Shown: positions 5,630-14,206 of the stretch, one piece after another
Layout: the number at the start of each line of letters is the position of its first letter
Numbering within the stretch: the first letter of the stretch is position 1
DNA from: Treponema brennaborense
GTDB lineage: Bacteria; Spirochaetota; Spirochaetia; Treponematales; Treponemataceae
Direction of reading: 5' to 3'
Assembly: GCA_023666275.1 (NCBI GenBank)
Contig: JAMPCJ010000002.1
Coordinates: 186,001-250,000 of the forward strand
Length of the DNA stretch: 64,000 nucleotides
Notes under the pieces: generated by a model
The model's database searches: none
What the model was told of the DNA's origin: nothing
The model's input: the letters and a program-made list of their open reading frames with translations, nothing else
Translations under genes and position numbers: made by a program

Positions 5630-8224
5630 TTAACATAATTTCATCGTTTCAATCTGCGCGCTTGAAGCAGAACGCTCCGCTTCGTCGGAAGATTCCTGTC
5701 CGGAAGCATCCTGTTTCTTTCCGGAAACACGGATAATGATTTTTTCCGCGCGGCAGTCAACAATCACGGTACAGCCGGCACTGCATGCCCCTCGCAGAAT
5801 TTTTTCGGCAATCGGATTTTCTATTTCCCGCTGCAAAAGCCGCCGCATCGGACGGGCGCCGAAAGCGGGTTCGTAGCCGTGCGCAATAAAATATTCCCGT
5901 GCCGCCGATTTTACGCGCAGCGAAATCCCCTGCTCCGCAACGCGATCGGATAATTCGCCGAGCTGAATCGAAAGAATCTGCGAAATTTCATCATGAGACA
6001 GCGCGGAAAACACAACGATATCGTCTATGCGGTTGATGAGCTCCGGATTCATGATTTTTTTCAGTTCCGCAAGCGCGCTTTGCTTCATGTCATCGTAATT
6101 AAGGAGCGTTTCCGATTCGGAAGAAAAACCGAGCTTGTTTTCATTGGTAATCTGCCGCGCGCCCGCATTGCTTGTCATAATAATAACCGTATTGCGGAAA
6201 TTGACGATATGGCCGAGATTGTCGCTCAGTTCGCCTTCTTCGAGAATTTGCAGCAGCAGATTAAACACGTCGGGATGGGCTTTTTCTATTTCATCGAGCA
6301 GGATTACCGAATACGGACGGCGGCGGACTTTTTCCGTCAGCAGCCCGCCTTCATCATAGCCGACATAACCGGGCGGCGCACCGACAAGCCTGCTTGCGGA
6401 ATGTTTTTCCATGAAATCGCTCATATCGACGCGGATGAGAGAATCTTCCGTTCCGAACAGGAAACGGGCAAGCGTTTTCGCCAAAAGCGTTTTTCCGACG
6501 CCGGTCGGACCGAGAAAAACAAACGAACCGAGCGGTCTTTTGGAGGAAGCAACGCCTGCACGGGCACGGCGCACGGCGGAAGACAGCAGCCGAACCGCTT
6601 CATTTTGCCCGATAATTGTTTTATGCAGTTCCGCTTCAAGGTGCACAAGCCGCTGAGATTCGGCGGCATCAAGCTGTTCCACGGGGATGCCCGTCATCGA
6701 CGAAACAACCGTGCATATATCGGAAAAACCGACGGCATTCCGTTCCGATTCCACGGCGGACTGCCAGCTGCTTGTCAGTTCTTTGAAACGTTCCCGCAGC
6801 AGCCGCACTTCATCGCGGACATCCGCTGCGAGTTCGTAATTCTGCGTCTGCACAAGCTGCTGTTTCCTGCCGGAAAGTTCCTCGATGCGTTTTTCGAGTT
6901 CCATAAGTTCGGCGGGACGCTTATCGCTTTCGATTTTTTTCATTGCGCCGGCTTCATCAAGAATATCGATAGCTTTATCCGGCAGAAAACGTTCCGTAAT
7001 ATACCGGCGTGAAAAACGCACTGCCGCTTTAATTACGTCGGGCGCATACGTAACTCCGTGATAGTCTTCATAGCGCTTTTTTATGCCCTCAAGTATCAAA
7101 ACCGTCTGATCGTCGTCAGGTTCATTCACCTGCACTATTTGAAAGCGGCGCTCCAACGCGGAATCTTTTTCGAAATATTTACGGTATTCCTTGAGCGTGG
7201 TGGCACCGATGCACTGCAGTTCGCCGCGTGAAAGCGCCGGCTTCAGCATATTGGATGCATCCATTGCGCCTTCCGCACCACCGGCACCGATAATCGTATG
7301 CAATTCGTCGATAAAAAGAATAATGGAGCGGTCTTCGTTTATTTCTTTTATGATGCGTTTAATCCGCTCCTCAAATTCGCCGCGGTATTTCGTTCCGGCA
7401 ATAACGGACGCGAGATCCAGCGTGAGGATGCGTTTTTTCAGCAAGTTATGCGGAACATCTTCCGCAACGATGCGCTGCGCGAGTCCTTCTACGATAGCTG
7501 TTTTTCCGACGCCCGGCTCGCCGACAAGAACCGGATTGTTTTTCGTGCGGCGCGAAAGAATTTGTATCAGCCGGCGGATTTCCGCATCGCGGCCGATGAC
7601 GGGATCCAGTTCGCCCTTGAGGGCTTTTTCCGTAATGTCGCGGCTGTATTCCCGAAGTACGGAAGCCGGCTGCTTTTGCTGCGCGGAAGAACGCTTCGCC
7701 TGCTGCTGAGACATGCCGTCCGAAGGATTGCTTTGCCCCTGGCTGCCGCGCTCCATGATATACGGAATGTCGGCGGCTCCGGAAGTGCCCATTTGCAGCA
7801 GCTCGATGAGCGCCCCGCGCGCGGAATCGAGAGGAATCTGCTGCTGTTCGCAGAATTTATACATAGCGCTCTGTTCCTCGCTCATCGCGGCAAGCAGAAT
7901 ATGTTCCGTCCCGATATGATCGCAGCGGAACGCGCGGGATTCTGCGGCGGCCGTATCAAGCAGGATTCTCAGCCTGACAGACGGTGGAATATCGCCGGCA
8001 AGCGGCGCGGCTGCCCGCATCGGTATATTTTGTTCCAAAAACAGCTGCATGGTAAGAATATTGACATTCAAATACATTAAAATATCGTATCCGAAGCCTT
8101 CCGCCATTTTCAGCAAACCGAGCATAACATGTTCGGGCAGAAGCTGTTCGCTGTTGCAGCGGCGCCCTTCATCCTGCGCGTACACGGTCAAAAGCTGCTG
8201 AGCTCTCAGTGATAAACTTTTCAT
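5630..8224 (-). CDS. clpC: ClpC-type AAA+ unfoldase
   Basis: 864 aa, class I Hsp100. An N-terminal Clp domain of two repeats (about 1-145), AAA-1 with Walker A GEPGVGKT (about 235-242) and Walker B FIDE (about 304-307), a UVR-containing middle domain (about 440-480), AAA-2 with GPTGVGKT (about 572-579), and a ClpP-docking loop NKLGFSS. The UVR-bearing short middle domain marks ClpC rather than ClpA or ClpB. It should feed unfolded proteins to ClpP. ATG 8224 has GGAGA 9 bases upstream; a GTG at 8239 is less likely. It is the last gene of mcsA-mcsB-clpC, 21 bases after mcsB; in Firmicutes McsB and McsA act as adaptors of this ATPase. Confidence 0.92.
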
Positions 8225-8245
8225 TAAAACATTCTCCACAGAATT

Positions 8246-9340
8246 TTACGCAACAAGACGGATATCCGACAACGCATTTTGAATAACAAGCGTTCTCAGC
8301 CGTTCTATGCGGAGATCATCCGTCGTTATATCTTTTTCATATTTCAATTTGCTTGTCCGAAGCACAAACTGCAGATGCGCATTTTGAATGCGGTACTGCA
8401 AGGCAAGCAAATCCGCATCATCAATGCCGGTTACCAAACCCAAATCTTTTCCCCACTTCACTTTGCTGATCAAATCAATTCCTTCCTGAAGCCCCATGAG
8501 GCGGCTGTATTTGATAATTGCAATGGCGCGGCACACTACGTCAAAGACGGCAGTCGGCTTGTTTTCGGCAAGTTCGCGGCGCAGTTTCCGTTCGAATTCA
8601 ATGCAGCTTTTCATTGCCGACAGCATATCTGCAATCTGCGATTCTTCGCTGCCGGCAAACGACGAAGCGCTGCTGACAAGATAATACGCGCCGGCGGATT
8701 TTCCTTTGCCGGAATTTGTCCCGTAAAAACCGGTTATCGCGTAATTGCGCGCCATAAGTTCTTTGAAAATCCGTTCAAGCTGTCCGGCGGCGGACGCAGA
8801 CGAAAGATGAAGGAGAAAAGAAATTTTCATCCCAGTTCCGAGCGCACGCAGCGACGCGGTTAAAAATCCGAAATCAGCCGAGGCGGCAAACTGCAAATAA
8901 TTCTGAAGCGCAATGTCAACTTCATGCGCCGCCGCAAAAGCTGTTTCGGGACTGCATCCCGCGGCAAACGACGCGATGCGCAGATGATCCAGGCAGTTAA
9001 CCGCGCAGGAAATATGTCCGTCGGTTTTTACCGTAATTCCCGCCATCGGACAGGATATGCTGTCAGGCGAAATTATGCCGCGTTCGGTCAAAATCCGCCG
9101 TCCGAGCGGTTCCAATTCGGAAACGGGAAGCGACTGATAGCCCGACGCATTATGCAGGCGCGAAAAAGCTTCGAAAACAAGCGTGCGGACGCGTTCGGCA
9201 TCGTCCGTTCTGAATTTATTGGGAAACTGAAAATTCGCCAGATTCCGCGCAAGCCGAACTCTTGTTGAAAGCACAACATCATTATCCGCGCCGGGAAGCG
9301 CATACCATATTTCCTGGGAACCGGAAGAATTTTCAGTCAT
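8246..9340 (-). CDS. mcsB: McsB-like guanido phosphotransferase, catalytic residues lost
   Basis: 364 aa, same length as McsB protein-arginine kinase. The family is recognisable from DVVLSTRVRLARNL (22-34), DHLRI (118-122) and GTG (168-170). In active McsB the motif NEEDH holds the catalytic acids; here it reads NCLDH (115-119). The active-site Cys motif TSCPTN is TASLRA (161-166), GTGLRAS is GTGMKIS (168-174), and RGIYGEGS is TGFYGTNS. The C-terminal RDxxRA phosphoarginine-binding motif is also degenerate. So it is an intact frame that probably cannot phosphorylate arginine. ATG 9340 has GGAGG five bases upstream and overlaps mcsA by 8 bases. A scaffold or adaptor role for ClpC is inferred. 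Confidence 0.85.
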   Translation of the reverse strand: MTENSSGSQEIWYALPGADNDVVLSTRVRLARNLANFQFPNKFRTDDAERVRTLVFEAFSRLHNASGYQSLPVSELEPLGRRILTERGIISPDSISCPMAGITVKTDGHISCAVNCLDHLRIASFAAGCSPETAFAAAHEVDIALQNYLQFAASADFGFLTASLRALGTGMKISFLLHLSSASAAGQLERIFKELMARNYAITGFYGTNSGKGKSAGAYYLVSSASSFAGSEESQIADMLSAMKSCIEFERKLRRELAENKPTAVFDVVCRAIAIIKYSRLMGLQEGIDLISKVKWGKDLGLVTGIDDADLLALQYRIQNAHLQFVLRTSKLKYEKDITTDDLRIERLRTLVIQNALSDIRLVA

Positions 9341-9905
9341 CCGCACCTCCGCGCATTATATCGGCATCGGCGTTTTCGTTTGTTTCATCGTCAGACGCGG
9401 CGGCTTCCGTCCCGCACGCATACAGTCCCTGTTCCAGCAGGCGCAGCTGATCGCGGAAAACGGCCGCACTTTCGTAATCTTCCACGGCGACAGCTTGTTC
9501 CAGCTTTTTTTGCAGCTGCATTCGGTCGGAAAGAACGTCTTCCGAAGCATGCGATACGTGCGGCAGAGAACCCGAAAATGTTCCGGATATGCCTTCGGCG
9601 CGGAGCACGGAAAATATTTCGGATTTGAATGTTTTGTAGCATTCGGGACATCCGCAGCGTTTTTGTTTTTGCAGTTCTTCCAAAGTCATTCCGCAAACGG
9701 CGCATGATTTCAGCTGTTTCTGCGCCGCACTGCCGAGCAAACCGGAGAGCAAACCGCCGAGAGACATTTCTATTTTTCCGTCGGACGCAGTTACGCCCCG
9801 TTTTTTCGCGCACAGCACGCATAAATGCAAATCGACAGGTGCAGAAGCAGATATCTGCCTGACAAATACGGCAGCTTCCCGTATTTTGCAAACATCACAT
9901 TTCAT
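9333..9905 (-). CDS. mcsA: McsA-like zinc and UVR-domain protein
   Basis: 190 aa. Four CxxC pairs (C3/C6, C29/C32, C68/C71, C86/C89) form two probable zinc sites, and a UVR (UvrB/UvrC-like) motif lies at about 140-175 (KLEQAVAVEDYESAAVFRDQL). This is the architecture of McsA, the activator of McsB and ClpC in Firmicutes. ATG 9905 starts MKCDVCKIREAAVF, has AAAGGA upstream, and excludes 38 unrelated residues of the longer open frame. First gene of mcsA-mcsB-clpC; no ctsR-like repressor gene precedes it and I see no CIRCE element in the 123 bases upstream. Confidence 0.85.
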   Translation of the reverse strand: MKCDVCKIREAAVFVRQISASAPVDLHLCVLCAKKRGVTASDGKIEMSLGGLLSGLLGSAAQKQLKSCAVCGMTLEELQKQKRCGCPECYKTFKSEIFSVLRAEGISGTFSGSLPHVSHASEDVLSDRMQLQKKLEQAVAVEDYESAAVFRDQLRLLEQGLYACGTEAAASDDETNENADADIMRGGADD

Positions 9906-10028
9906 CGAATCAGTCCTTTGTTCGGAATGCGGAATTTTTCCGCGCATCGGCAGACGCCGAATATCGCCGAACATTCGCATAGCAAAGCGCATCGCACAGA
10001 AATCCGTTTTTATCGGCAAAACGAAAAA

Positions 10029-11351
10029 CTATACTTTGCGCAAAATGGAAAGCGGTTTTTCTTTTCCGGCACGGATCGCCGGAACGACGGAAACGCAAAG
10101 CGACAGCACAAGCGTTAATGTGCTTATCGCAAGCAATTCCCCGAACGGTATCGCAACCGGGATTTTTTCCAAATAATATCCGGGATCCATCAATTTTACG
10201 GCAGTAAAACCTTCTTTCCGTACTATACTATAACCAAAAAGCATAAAAAAGTTTACTGTTTTTTCCGCAAAAGTTATAATTTCATTGATATTTACGGAAC
10301 AGACAAGCCCCAGCGGCATGCCCAGCAGCACGCCGAGCACGCCGATGCATGTTCCGACGCACAAAAACGACACGGCAATGCCGCTGCCGGATGCGCCGAT
10401 GCTTTTCAATATGGCAATTTCCTTGCTGCGTTCCATAATAAGCATAACCAATGCGGATGAAACATTCACCGAAGCAACCAGAACAATGAGCGACATTATA
10501 AGCAAAAGAAGCGTCTTTGTTGACGAAAAATTTTCAAACTGCGAAGCGTTCAGATCCTGCCAGCGGTACAACTGATAATTATCCGGCAAAGCATTTTCCG
10601 CGTTCCGATAAACTGCCTGAAATTCATCGGAAAACGGCGACGCGGTTTCAATTCCGATAATCGTGCGGGCTGATTCGCGGGCAAACACAGACGATGCATC
10701 ATCAAGCGGAATAAAAACCCACAGCGCGTCAAGTTCCTGGTATCCGCATGAAATAACGCCGCTTACGGTGAAACGCGAAATCTTGGGAATCGGTTTTCCT
10801 GATTTTCCGGGAAGCACGCTGATAAGCCGGAGCGTATCGCCTGCCGTCAGCTGAAGTATTTCGGATAACTTTTCCCCGATGAGCGCGGTTTTCGGGCGGG
10901 AAATATCCGCGGATCCGGCAGCAACGGAAATCAATGAACAGAAAGCGGCATCGGAAACAAATATATCGGGATCGACTGCGCGGACAGCTGCGCCGGTACG
11001 TCCGTTTTTGCCGGCGGCGAGCACCATTCCCTGCTTTTCAATATATGCAGCGCGGACGCCTTCCGTATTTAAAAGTGCACTGCGGCATAATTCGATATCT
11101 TCAAAGTCTTTTTCATCGGAAAGAAAATAATTCGAACGGACAGCCTGCAAATGGTAGCTGGAAAGTCCGATAATGCGTTCCGTAATTCCTTCTATCATGC
11201 TGTTTGAAACAACCGATACTACGATAAGCGGCACAAGACTCAGCGCGATGCAGACGACAGCGCCTGCCATGCTTTTGCGCGCGTTGGATACGGCGGCGTT
11301 TTTCGGCAGCAAAACACGGAATGCAAACAGTATTGACGAGCGGAAATTCAT
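10029..11351 (-). CDS. lolE: LolC/LolE-type ABC transporter permease (second)
   Basis: 440 aa. An N-terminal transmembrane helix (about 32-53), a large periplasmic MacB-PCD-like domain (about 55-270) and a C-terminal FtsX domain with three helices (about 270-435), the LolC/E plan. It would extract lipoproteins from the inner membrane and pass them to LolA. ATG 11351 overlaps the lolD stop by four bases (ATGA), which fixes the start; the 12 codons upstream lie inside lolD. Which of the two permeases is LolC and which LolE cannot be told from sequence alone, so the symbol is tentative. Confidence 0.78.
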   Translation of the reverse strand: MNFRSSILFAFRVLLPKNAAVSNARKSMAGAVVCIALSLVPLIVVSVVSNSMIEGITERIIGLSSYHLQAVRSNYFLSDEKDFEDIELCRSALLNTEGVRAAYIEKQGMVLAAGKNGRTGAAVRAVDPDIFVSDAAFCSLISVAAGSADISRPKTALIGEKLSEILQLTAGDTLRLISVLPGKSGKPIPKISRFTVSGVISCGYQELDALWVFIPLDDASSVFARESARTIIGIETASPFSDEFQAVYRNAENALPDNYQLYRWQDLNASQFENFSSTKTLLLLIMSLIVLVASVNVSSALVMLIMERSKEIAILKSIGASGSGIAVSFLCVGTCIGVLGVLLGMPLGLVCSVNINEIITFAEKTVNFFMLFGYSIVRKEGFTAVKLMDPGYYLEKIPVAIPFGELLAISTLTLVLSLCVSVVPAIRAGKEKPLSILRKV

Positions 11352-12031
11352 ACGCGTTCCAGCTTGCCGCCGGTCAGGCGGTAGCAAATATCGGCTCGTC
11401 CCGCAAGTCCGTGATCATGCGTTACCAGCACAAGCGTTTTGCGGTATTTTTCTACCATCGAAAAAAGCACGTCGCTGACTACGGCGGCATTTGCGGGATC
11501 CAAATTTCCGGTAGGTTCGTCGGCAAGAATGAGTTCCGGATTATTTATAAGCGCGCGGGCAACCGCGGCACGCTGCCGTTCGCCGCCCGATAACTGGGAC
11601 GGCAGATGATGCATCCGCTTTTCAAGCGATACATCGCACAGCAGCTGTTCCGCACGTTCCAGCGCTTTTTTTTTCGGCATTCCGTTCATATACGCCGGCA
11701 GAAACACATTTTCCAGCGCGGTGAAATCTTTCAGCAAATAATGGAACTGAAATATCAATCCCAAAAAACGGGCGCGGTATTCTGTCAATCCGTTTTCGTC
11801 GAGCGACGATACCGGATACGATCCCGCGCGCACGGAACCGGCACTCAGCGTATCCAGTCCGCCGATAATATTCAGCAGTGTCGATTTTCCACAGCCCGAT
11901 TCGCCGGTTATGATGTTTTTTGTTCCGGCATCGACCGTCATATCAAGATTTTTAAGAATCGTCAGCGATTCGGCAGTGCCTGTGTATGTTTTTTCCAGAC
12001 CGCGAACAGTCAGCAGCGCAGAATCATTCAT
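11348..12031 (-). CDS. lolD: LolD-type ABC transporter ATPase
   Basis: 227 aa, the usual LolD/MacB ATPase size. Walker A GESGCGKST, Q-loop FQFHYLLKDFTALENV, signature LSGGERQRAAVARAL, Walker B LILADEPTGNLD, and H-loop VTHD are all present. ATG 12031 overlaps the upstream permease gene by 8 bases (ATGAATGA); the 93 codons of open frame before it have no ABC homology. Flanked on both sides by FtsX-type permeases, so it energises a LolCDE complex. Confidence 0.9.
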   Translation of the reverse strand: MNDSALLTVRGLEKTYTGTAESLTILKNLDMTVDAGTKNIITGESGCGKSTLLNIIGGLDTLSAGSVRAGSYPVSSLDENGLTEYRARFLGLIFQFHYLLKDFTALENVFLPAYMNGMPKKKALERAEQLLCDVSLEKRMHHLPSQLSGGERQRAAVARALINNPELILADEPTGNLDPANAAVVSDVLFSMVEKYRKTLVLVTHDHGLAGRADICYRLTGGKLERV

Positions 12032-13358
12032 CCCGCAAAACCTCCGCAATAACAAGATTGAGCATTTTTCGGCTTGCAAGCCAGGACGCAGCCAGCGAAG
12101 CGAAAATTCCGAACAATGCAATGCACAATGTTTCTCCGAAAAAAGGATGCGCGGGAATTTTCGCGTAAAACAAATACAGCATATTCTGGCGCACGCCGGC
12201 GGCTGTTTCGGGAGAAAACAGCATCGCAAAAAAGAGCTGCGCGTTGTACAGCGCGGACGAAAACAGCGTAAAAACAGCATCGATGCGGACGGAAAGCAAA
12301 AGTCCCGCAATCAGTCCGGGAAGAGCACCGCAGACGCCGGTAATCAGCCCGCGGAGAATGAATATTCCCTGAACAGACGACGGAGAACCGCCGAGCGCCG
12401 TCAGCACGCAGATTTCTTCTTTCCGTTCATACACCATCCGCCGCATGCCGTTGAATATATTAACGCCGACCATCAAAAAAATCAAAAACACAAGCAGCAT
12501 CAGAATATTTTTTTCGACCCGAAGCGCGCCGAAAAACGATCGATTGAAAGAACGCCAGGATTCAATCGTCATTCGGGGAAATAATCTGCCGAAGTCGGCG
12601 GCAAAAACGGCGTCTTTTTCGGCATCCGCCAACTTTATGCCGTATATCAAGCGCGAATCGGCGCCGAACAAGTCTTTTCCGGTTTCCAGCGGAATAAATG
12701 CGTATGAAGAATTTATTTCCGCATATCCGCAGAAAAAAACGCCGGCAACGGTAAAAACACGGTTGTCCGAAAAAAGATCGACATCCGCGCCGCCCGAAAG
12801 CGCAAAAATATTGACGGCATCGCCGACACGCACGCGCAGCTGCTTTGCAAGCTCATAGCCTAAAACGATGTTTTCCGGCGAGTACAAATCAAACGAACCG
12901 CTGTACAGTTTTGCTTCACGCGCAAAGCCGCTGTCGATTTCCGAAATATCCGCGGGAACCGCGCGGATAATCGCGGCACACTGAGCCGCGTATTTGCCGG
13001 AAAGAAGTCCCTGCGCTTCATAAAACGGCGTTACGGATTTTACGCCGGAAACGGCGCGTATCCGTGCGGCGGTTTCATTGCCGGAAAACGCCGAATCGTG
13101 CCCTGCCGATGCGGACGAAACAGCATCCGAATCGGCAGACATACGTATGTGATACGAGCTGATTTCGAGAATGCTGTCTATGGAGCCGGACTGAAATCCG
13201 TTCATGACAGCCATGATGACAACAAGAGCCATAACGCCGAACGCGATTCCCAGCATCGGCATAAAGCCCGCCGCCGAAAAACGGCTGCCGGCATCGACGC
13301 GGGAAAAGCGGCGGGAAACGTAATATATCCATTTCAGATCCCGCAGGATTCGGGGCAT
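12024..13358 (-). CDS. lolC: LolC/LolE-type ABC transporter permease (first)
   Basis: 444 aa with the same plan as the permease at 10029: an N-terminal helix (LGIAFGVMALVVIMAVMNGF), a periplasmic domain, and a C-terminal FtsX region with a cytoplasmic loop (MRRMVYERKEEICVLTALGG) typical of this family. The start ATG 13358 shares one base with the upstream TGA (TGATG), a strong sign of translational coupling. Forms LolCDE with the next two genes. Confidence 0.8.
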   Translation of the reverse strand: MPRILRDLKWIYYVSRRFSRVDAGSRFSAAGFMPMLGIAFGVMALVVIMAVMNGFQSGSIDSILEISSYHIRMSADSDAVSSASAGHDSAFSGNETAARIRAVSGVKSVTPFYEAQGLLSGKYAAQCAAIIRAVPADISEIDSGFAREAKLYSGSFDLYSPENIVLGYELAKQLRVRVGDAVNIFALSGGADVDLFSDNRVFTVAGVFFCGYAEINSSYAFIPLETGKDLFGADSRLIYGIKLADAEKDAVFAADFGRLFPRMTIESWRSFNRSFFGALRVEKNILMLLVFLIFLMVGVNIFNGMRRMVYERKEEICVLTALGGSPSSVQGIFILRGLITGVCGALPGLIAGLLLSVRIDAVFTLFSSALYNAQLFFAMLFSPETAAGVRQNMLYLFYAKIPAHPFFGETLCIALFGIFASLAASWLASRKMLNLVIAEVLRDE

Positions 13359-14206
13359 CAAAACACAGACCTCCTGATTTCTCTTCCGTCTGCCGCATAA
13401 ATTTCTTCTGTTTTGATATTATTTTCGTATCTGCTGCTGACAGTCTGCGCCGCGGAAAAATATATTGTTTCCGTATATGCGGCGTCCGATTCCCGCACAA
13501 GCCGGCGTTTAAGCATGTCATTTTCATAATATGCTTCATCCGGCTTTGACGAACGCTCCGAATAATAATACTGTGTCAAAACGTTTCGGGAGTCCCGCGA
13601 TATTTTTTCGGACACAAGTCGATGTGCTTCATCATACGTCCATTCGGCGGCGGAAATAATTTCTTCAACGGGAACAGAAAGATTTTCAATCTGTTCCGTG
13701 TTTTCAAAAGATGCATTGTCCGCATTGTCTGCGGCGGCAGCTTCCCGATTCTTCTGCGGAACATTTATTCGGTATTCGGTTTTCTTCGCCGGAAGCCCGA
13801 AAGAAGTGTATTCCGTCACAATTTTGGAAAAACTTCCGGGATTCTCTTCTGTTTTGCTGGCAGGAAAAAAATTGTTTCCCTCGTACACGTAAGAAACGGA
13901 TTCCGAAATATTATCTTCGCCTTTTTTCCAGATGCTTTCGTGCAAAAGCCTCATGCGCTCATCGTACTTTTTTAAAGTAATTTTTTCGTCATCGGTGCGT
14001 GAAACGGAATTGATGCCGTTCCGCGAGTGCGACAAAAATACCAAGCCGCCGTCCTCTTCCGCACAGCGCACCAATCCGGCAGAATCGTGCTTTTCCGAAA
14101 AAACGGCTTCCTGTGCAGACAGCGCGGTGCAGCAGTTCCGGTGCAGTACAAAGAGCGCCGCCGCAAAAGCAATTCCGCGGCGGAAAAAAAACGAAGCGTG
14201 TTTCAT
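13358..14206 (-). CDS. Exported protein of unknown function
   Basis: 282 aa. A basic N-terminus plus hydrophobic stretch (RRGIAFAAALFVLHRNCCTALSA) reads as a signal peptide. The rest has repeated short elements with the pattern KKYDxxxRLLHES and YTSFGLPAKKTEY, reminiscent of YD/MORN-like antigen repeats, but I do not recognise the family. It overlaps the ftsY stop by four bases and is coupled to lolC by TGATG, so it belongs to the ftsY-lolCDE transcription unit; a periplasmic or envelope role is inferred only from the signal peptide. Confidence 0.65.
   Translation of the reverse strand: MKHASFFFRRGIAFAAALFVLHRNCCTALSAQEAVFSEKHDSAGLVRCAEEDGGLVFLSHSRNGINSVSRTDDEKITLKKYDERMRLLHESIWKKGEDNISESVSYVYEGNNFFPASKTEENPGSFSKIVTEYTSFGLPAKKTEYRINVPQKNREAAAADNADNASFENTEQIENLSVPVEEIISAAEWTYDEAHRLVSEKISRDSRNVLTQYYYSERSSKPDEAYYENDMLKRRLVRESDAAYTETIYFSAAQTVSSRYENNIKTEEIYAADGREIRRSVF

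Follow-up and report, generated by a model that had tools for sequence, protein, structure and literature searches.

A predicted McsB pseudokinase in the mcsA-mcsB-clpC operon of Treponema brennaborense and across its family

Does a McsB homologue that lacks the catalytic residues of a protein arginine kinase, encoded between mcsA and clpC, still act as a kinase, or is it kept for another use? The question is raised by a 64,000-nucleotide stretch of Treponema brennaborense DNA (contig JAMPCJ010000002.1; hereafter the window), in which mcsA, mcsB and clpC lie nearly gapless on the minus strand. The mcsB homologue (8246..9346) encodes a predicted pseudokinase of 366 aa from a GTG start, or begins at an internal ATG at 9340, in agreement with the span of 8246-9340 first proposed for it. 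Upstream, mcsA (9333..9905) encodes 190 aa with four CxxC pairs and a UVR motif and matches NCBIfam NF053706 (E 4e-25), PDB 8wtb_B (E 2.6e-22) and also the McsB-bound segment 8gqd_E; its ATG at 9905 was preferred to a TTG at 10019 in the open reading frame list, which is a mechanical extension. Downstream, clpC (5630..8239) encodes a Clp_N domain, two AAA modules with Walker motifs, a UVR motif and an LGF ClpP-type loop; clpP is also present. With all three genes identified in this order on one strand and the zinc motifs of McsA intact, the operon is as complete as the sequence-only reading had claimed. Directly upstream of mcsA, LolCDE-type ABC transporter-like genes (two permease-like ORFs and an ATPase; 10029-13361, minus strand) lie 123 bp from the mcsA start. 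No CIRCE heat-shock element was found within the window, where sigma-70-like promoters and terminators gave matches only at chance level and were not retained.

The window protein is homologous to McsB over its whole length. It matches Pfam PF00217 (E 2.5e-32) and, among PDB sequences, 6fh1 (E 1e-40), at ~ 24-28% identity to known McsB kinases. Its AlphaFold (AF2) model has a pLDDT of 94 and a pTM of 0.91, the lid loop being the least certain folded part, and among solved structures Foldseek matches it best to McsB of B. subtilis and Geobacillus (6tv6/6fh3), with a TM-score of 0.84-0.85 on query length over ~ 350 columns, dimerisation domain included. Both the ATP:guanido phosphotransferase domain and the C-terminal dimerisation domain are thus present, and the model and its matches bear out the full length and fold landmarks noticed earlier. 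Against NCBIfam NF002194 (protein arginine kinase), however, the score of 213 bits is far under the 385-bit cut-off, and the protein falls short at equivalog level (213 vs 385 bits; 194 vs 500 bits). A profile search of the window genome (2.35 Mb, 97.7% complete) returned no second PF00217 protein, hence no sign of the second active McsB that had been named as an objection. Among the controls, B. subtilis, which is known to carry both a PF00217 gene (mcsB) and ctsR, is missed by the PF00217 and CtsR searches, and these controls therefore give no sensitivity measure there.

In the numbering of Limulus arginine kinase (E225, C271 etc., C271 being C167 in McsB), five catalytic positions of the window protein are changed, namely E225 to Leu, C271 to Ser, R280 to Lys, R309 to Thr and E314 to Thr, and R124, R126, D226, H227 and R229 are kept. 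On the minus strand, STRVR (9254..9268) holds the phosphate-side arginines R124 and R126; NCLDHLR (8978..8998) has Leu for catalytic E225, with D226, H227 and R229 retained; TASLRA (8843..8860) has Ser for the catalytic Cys; GTGMKIS (8819..8839) has Lys for R280, this Lys being 95% conserved in the family; and TGFYGTNS (8711..8734) is a degenerate form of the lid motif RGxYGEGS that lacks R309 and E314. In the protein's own numbering the lost sites include L119 (E225), S165 (Cys) and T210 (E314), so that neither the acids E225 and E314 nor the reactive Cys of SCPTN, by which a protein arginine kinase is recognised, is found. These four altered motifs (NCLDH, TASLRA, GTGMKIS and TGFYGTNS) had been read correctly to the letter. 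When the protein was aligned with characterised Geobacillus McsB, as had been advised, they fell opposite NEEDHIR, TSCPTN, GTGLRAS and RGTYGEGS both in a profile-profile alignment (E 4e-64) and with MAFFT; because the two alignments agree on this placement, the motifs are not displaced. Furthermore, neither the alignments nor column conservation in the family revealed a relocated conserved catalytic acid, one of the findings named beforehand as telling against a pseudokinase. The phosphoarginine pocket, described beforehand as degenerate, is so only in part: in IERLR (8294..8308), the equivalent of RDxxR, R337 is Ile and D338 is Glu, but R341 is kept and position 338 is still acidic. R337 is mostly absent from kinase-type spirochaete McsB as well.

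The catalytic loss is family-wide and not peculiar to the window organism. A McsB homologue occurs in 174 of the 195 sampled genomes of the Treponemataceae-like family, and the family sequences form a single clade (SH-aLRT 98); in all 53 examined the catalytic Cys is missing and no more than two of the five catalytic residues remain, Glu or Asp standing at 225 in 16 of them. Elsewhere in the phylum (families f23, f28, f34, f39, f46, f48 and f50) most McsB keep 3-5 of the five, that of genome G206 (f28) being fully canonical with 5/5, and McsB is degenerate too in f25, f30, f37, f44 and several class-level lineages. Two McsB of f34 (L061 and L063), nested in the kinase-type clade, keep 0/5 (NDTDH/NDSDH, PNPAN), a loss that is an event independent of the Treponemataceae-like family. 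Within that family, R126 and R229 are gone from sub-lineage g15, and three genomes (G029, G039 and G166) with a very divergent or partial McsB (E ~ 1e-15) and an unconvincing McsA are possible intermediate stages in losing the mcsA-mcsB pair.

Strong McsA matches (E below 1e-8) were found in 169 of the 174 McsB-positive family genomes vs none of the 21 McsB-negative ones, with a Fisher p of 8e-24 that is overstated, the genomes being related, and with the negatives falling in several genera. ClpC is retained in 16 of these 21. Given this pairing and the persistence of ClpC, McsA and McsB are a pair accessory to ClpC, present or absent together. Nearly every McsA copy has all four CxxC pairs, including in the segment that is McsB-bound in 8gqd; in L084 and several g4 genomes (e.g. 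G092, G094, G102 and G103) the first zinc-finger half is apparently absent, the McsA HMM matches starting near profile position 55-75. Nearly all of the loci examined have the order mcsA-mcsB-clpC; in L074 and in a few distant ones mcsA-mcsB stands with no clpC within the stretch fetched, and likewise in L102 and L103 (f44) and L086-L088 (f25), where McsB is degenerate. Glu32 and Glu106 of the ClpC N-domain do not vary, whether the lineage has a kinase-type McsB or a pseudokinase, and the window ClpC keeps both. As a discriminator the phosphoarginine pocket of this domain proved uninformative, only T7 to Ser differing between lineage types.

The CtsR and YwlE arginine phosphatase that mark a McsA-McsB-ClpC system were not found in the window genome. 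CtsR was not found in the 297 phylum genomes, the search of the window genome with PF05848 (of limited sensitivity, 1 of 14 control genomes found) returned none, and no member of the LMW-PTP/YwlE family (PF01451) was found in the window genome, unlike in Firmicutes McsB systems. LMW-PTP is present in many relatives. Over the 297 genomes, the sole match of the YwlE P-loop pattern GNTCRSP shown inside an LMW-PTP gene is that of G206, and four LMW-PTP matches from other kinase-type families have the loop CTGNSCRSQ; with this one case, the pattern is suggestive only and was set aside. At the G206 locus (L131), the YwlE-type P-loop reads CTGNTCRSPMAE in a lineage whose McsB has 5/5 residues, which makes this lineage a candidate for a complete phosphoarginine cycle in a spirochaete.

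What kind of protein, then, is conserved here? When close pairs within the family are compared, dN/dS lies at 0.02-0.17, vs 0.04-0.08 in kinase-type lineages, with overlapping ranges, and mcsB is therefore not a decaying gene. Although mcsA and mcsB are entirely lost in some relatives, decay or an assembly artefact is scarcely credible for a full-length frame found in 174/195 genomes with a high-confidence fold, and for the family decay is refuted by dN/dS values well below 1. Within the family the catalytic columns are among the most variable of all columns (variability percentiles: E225 99th, E314 82nd, R309 80th, C271 72nd) while others are conserved (R124 14th, R126 24th, D226 4th, H227 0, K280 7th, S282 13th), R229 being conserved at 73%. 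Catalytic constraint is therefore gone and constraint on the fold and the phosphate side remains, so that lost catalytic motifs coexist with a persisting fold and purifying selection, as in a pseudokinase. An active arginine kinase despite these changes, perhaps rescued by McsA, would be in keeping with the tolerance of arginine kinase for some single substitutions, with Ser at the Cys position and with E225 kept in some relatives. It is nonetheless very improbable, as all five positions are changed at once, the genome has no arginine phosphatase family member and McsB C167S alone has been described as kinase-inactive (PMC7235348); kinase activity is very probably absent, as far as residues can tell.

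A remodelled site could instead transfer phosphate to another group or perform another nucleotide reaction. Pseudoenzymes with new chemistry are indeed known (PMC10211241), Lys at 280 is conserved, and a new Asp/Glu is frequent in relatives three residues past the lost Cys (Asp in 73%). In the window protein, however, that position is Ala, no acid near the site is both new and universally conserved, and the ex-catalytic columns vary without pattern, which leaves such an enzyme quite unlikely. Somewhat less unlikely is a negative regulator, in which McsA-McsB would keep ClpC inactive until released by stress: McsB of B. subtilis is bound to ClpC in normal conditions and is inhibited by it (PMC5506225), and ClpC persists where mcsAB is lost, but known ClpC adaptors are activators. 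More plausible, if still tentative, is a pseudokinase that would bind ATP/ADP through R29, R31, R123 and K174 of the protein, occupancy switching McsA-McsB on or off ClpC; the phosphate-side residues are selectively conserved, with a near-fixed Arg to Lys change, while the catalytic ones vary freely. Against it stand the loss of R309, the incomplete conservation of R229, the g15 sequences without R126 and R229, and the possibility that D226 and H227 are structural. This nucleotide-sensing proposal is a refinement of the explanation that we prefer.

We favour, with a probability of about 0.68, a clade-wide McsB pseudokinase that serves ClpC, jointly with McsA, as an adaptor independent of phosphoarginine. 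The pseudokinase already proposed by the sequence-only reading has withstood the objections that computation could address, with a single PF00217 protein in the genome, no relocated conserved acid, a full-length fold, purifying selection and strict pairing with McsA in a conserved operon; the scaffold or ClpC-adaptor role suggested along with it is the most probable use. On this view McsB is catalytically dead: both acids that grip the guanidinium are gone, as are the catalytic Cys and the arginine of the lid, but the predicted fold is still that of a phosphagen kinase, the C-terminal dimerisation domain is there, and so is the greater part of the phosphate-binding basic residues. It would form a complex with McsA, a step we hold highly likely; this complex would bind the ClpC N-domain and free ClpC from its resting state, and unfolded clients would be delivered to ClpCP without arginine phosphorylation. 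Operon structure and co-occurrence make adaptor action on ClpC reasonably probable, nucleotide sensing is a more speculative addition, and either nucleotide or the zinc thiols of McsA may exert control.

Several observations weigh against this adaptor. Single acid mutants of arginine kinase retain some activity, so that loss of one residue alone would not prove death; 16/53 family members still have Glu/Asp at E225; and the retained ClpC pocket glutamates would also fit recognition of phosphoarginine from another source. Moreover, ClpC stimulation by McsB in B. subtilis is reported to need kinase activity, the adaptor role being largely kinase-dependent (PMC5506225). In favour of the adaptor, the B. 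subtilis laboratory mutant C167S, which shares the Cys to Ser change, is kinase-inactive and yet still acts in part on MgsR turnover (PMC7235348), its adaptor effect thus being partly kinase-free; in the window protein the change is natural, fixed family-wide and joined by four more catalytic positions. In other bacteria MecA occupies the Glu32/Glu106 pockets of the ClpC N-domain (PMC12583610), and because it occupies these same pockets phosphoarginine is not the sole route to relieve the ClpC resting state. The non-kinase adaptors MecA and MdfA both bind this domain and relieve the resting state (PMC12583610); by analogy the window McsB, which is unrelated to them and whose ClpC binding is putative, would act likewise.

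The window protein shares the full fold, the C-terminal dimerisation domain and the mcsA-mcsB-clpC order with McsB of B. subtilis, G. stearothermophilus and S. aureus, and differs from these kinases at E225, C271, R280, R309 and E314. It shares the operon and full-length homology with the kinase-type McsB of other spirochaete families, most of which, unlike it, keep NEEDH and the Cys. Bacterial Ser/Thr pseudokinases have likewise lost catalytic motifs in a conserved fold, but that fold is unrelated, and the review describing them expressly excludes arginine kinases (PMC12599244). A search of openly readable literature returned no paper that treats phosphoarginine, or the activity of McsB, in spirochaetes, and no description of a family-wide dead McsB. 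The fullest version of our proposal, a phosphoarginine-free McsAB-ClpCP in Treponemataceae with the ex-kinase as nucleotide-sensing adaptor and at least one separate similar loss (L061/L063, f34), is doubtful as a whole. What McsB does as a kinase and what it does as an adaptor have been difficult to tell apart in Firmicutes (PMC5506225); with a McsB that lacks the catalytic residues naturally and throughout a family, and that is almost always accompanied by McsA next to ClpC, the adaptor role could be tested directly and by itself. Across the Treponema family, the label 'protein arginine kinase', and the phosphoarginine signalling inferred from it, are probably wrong.
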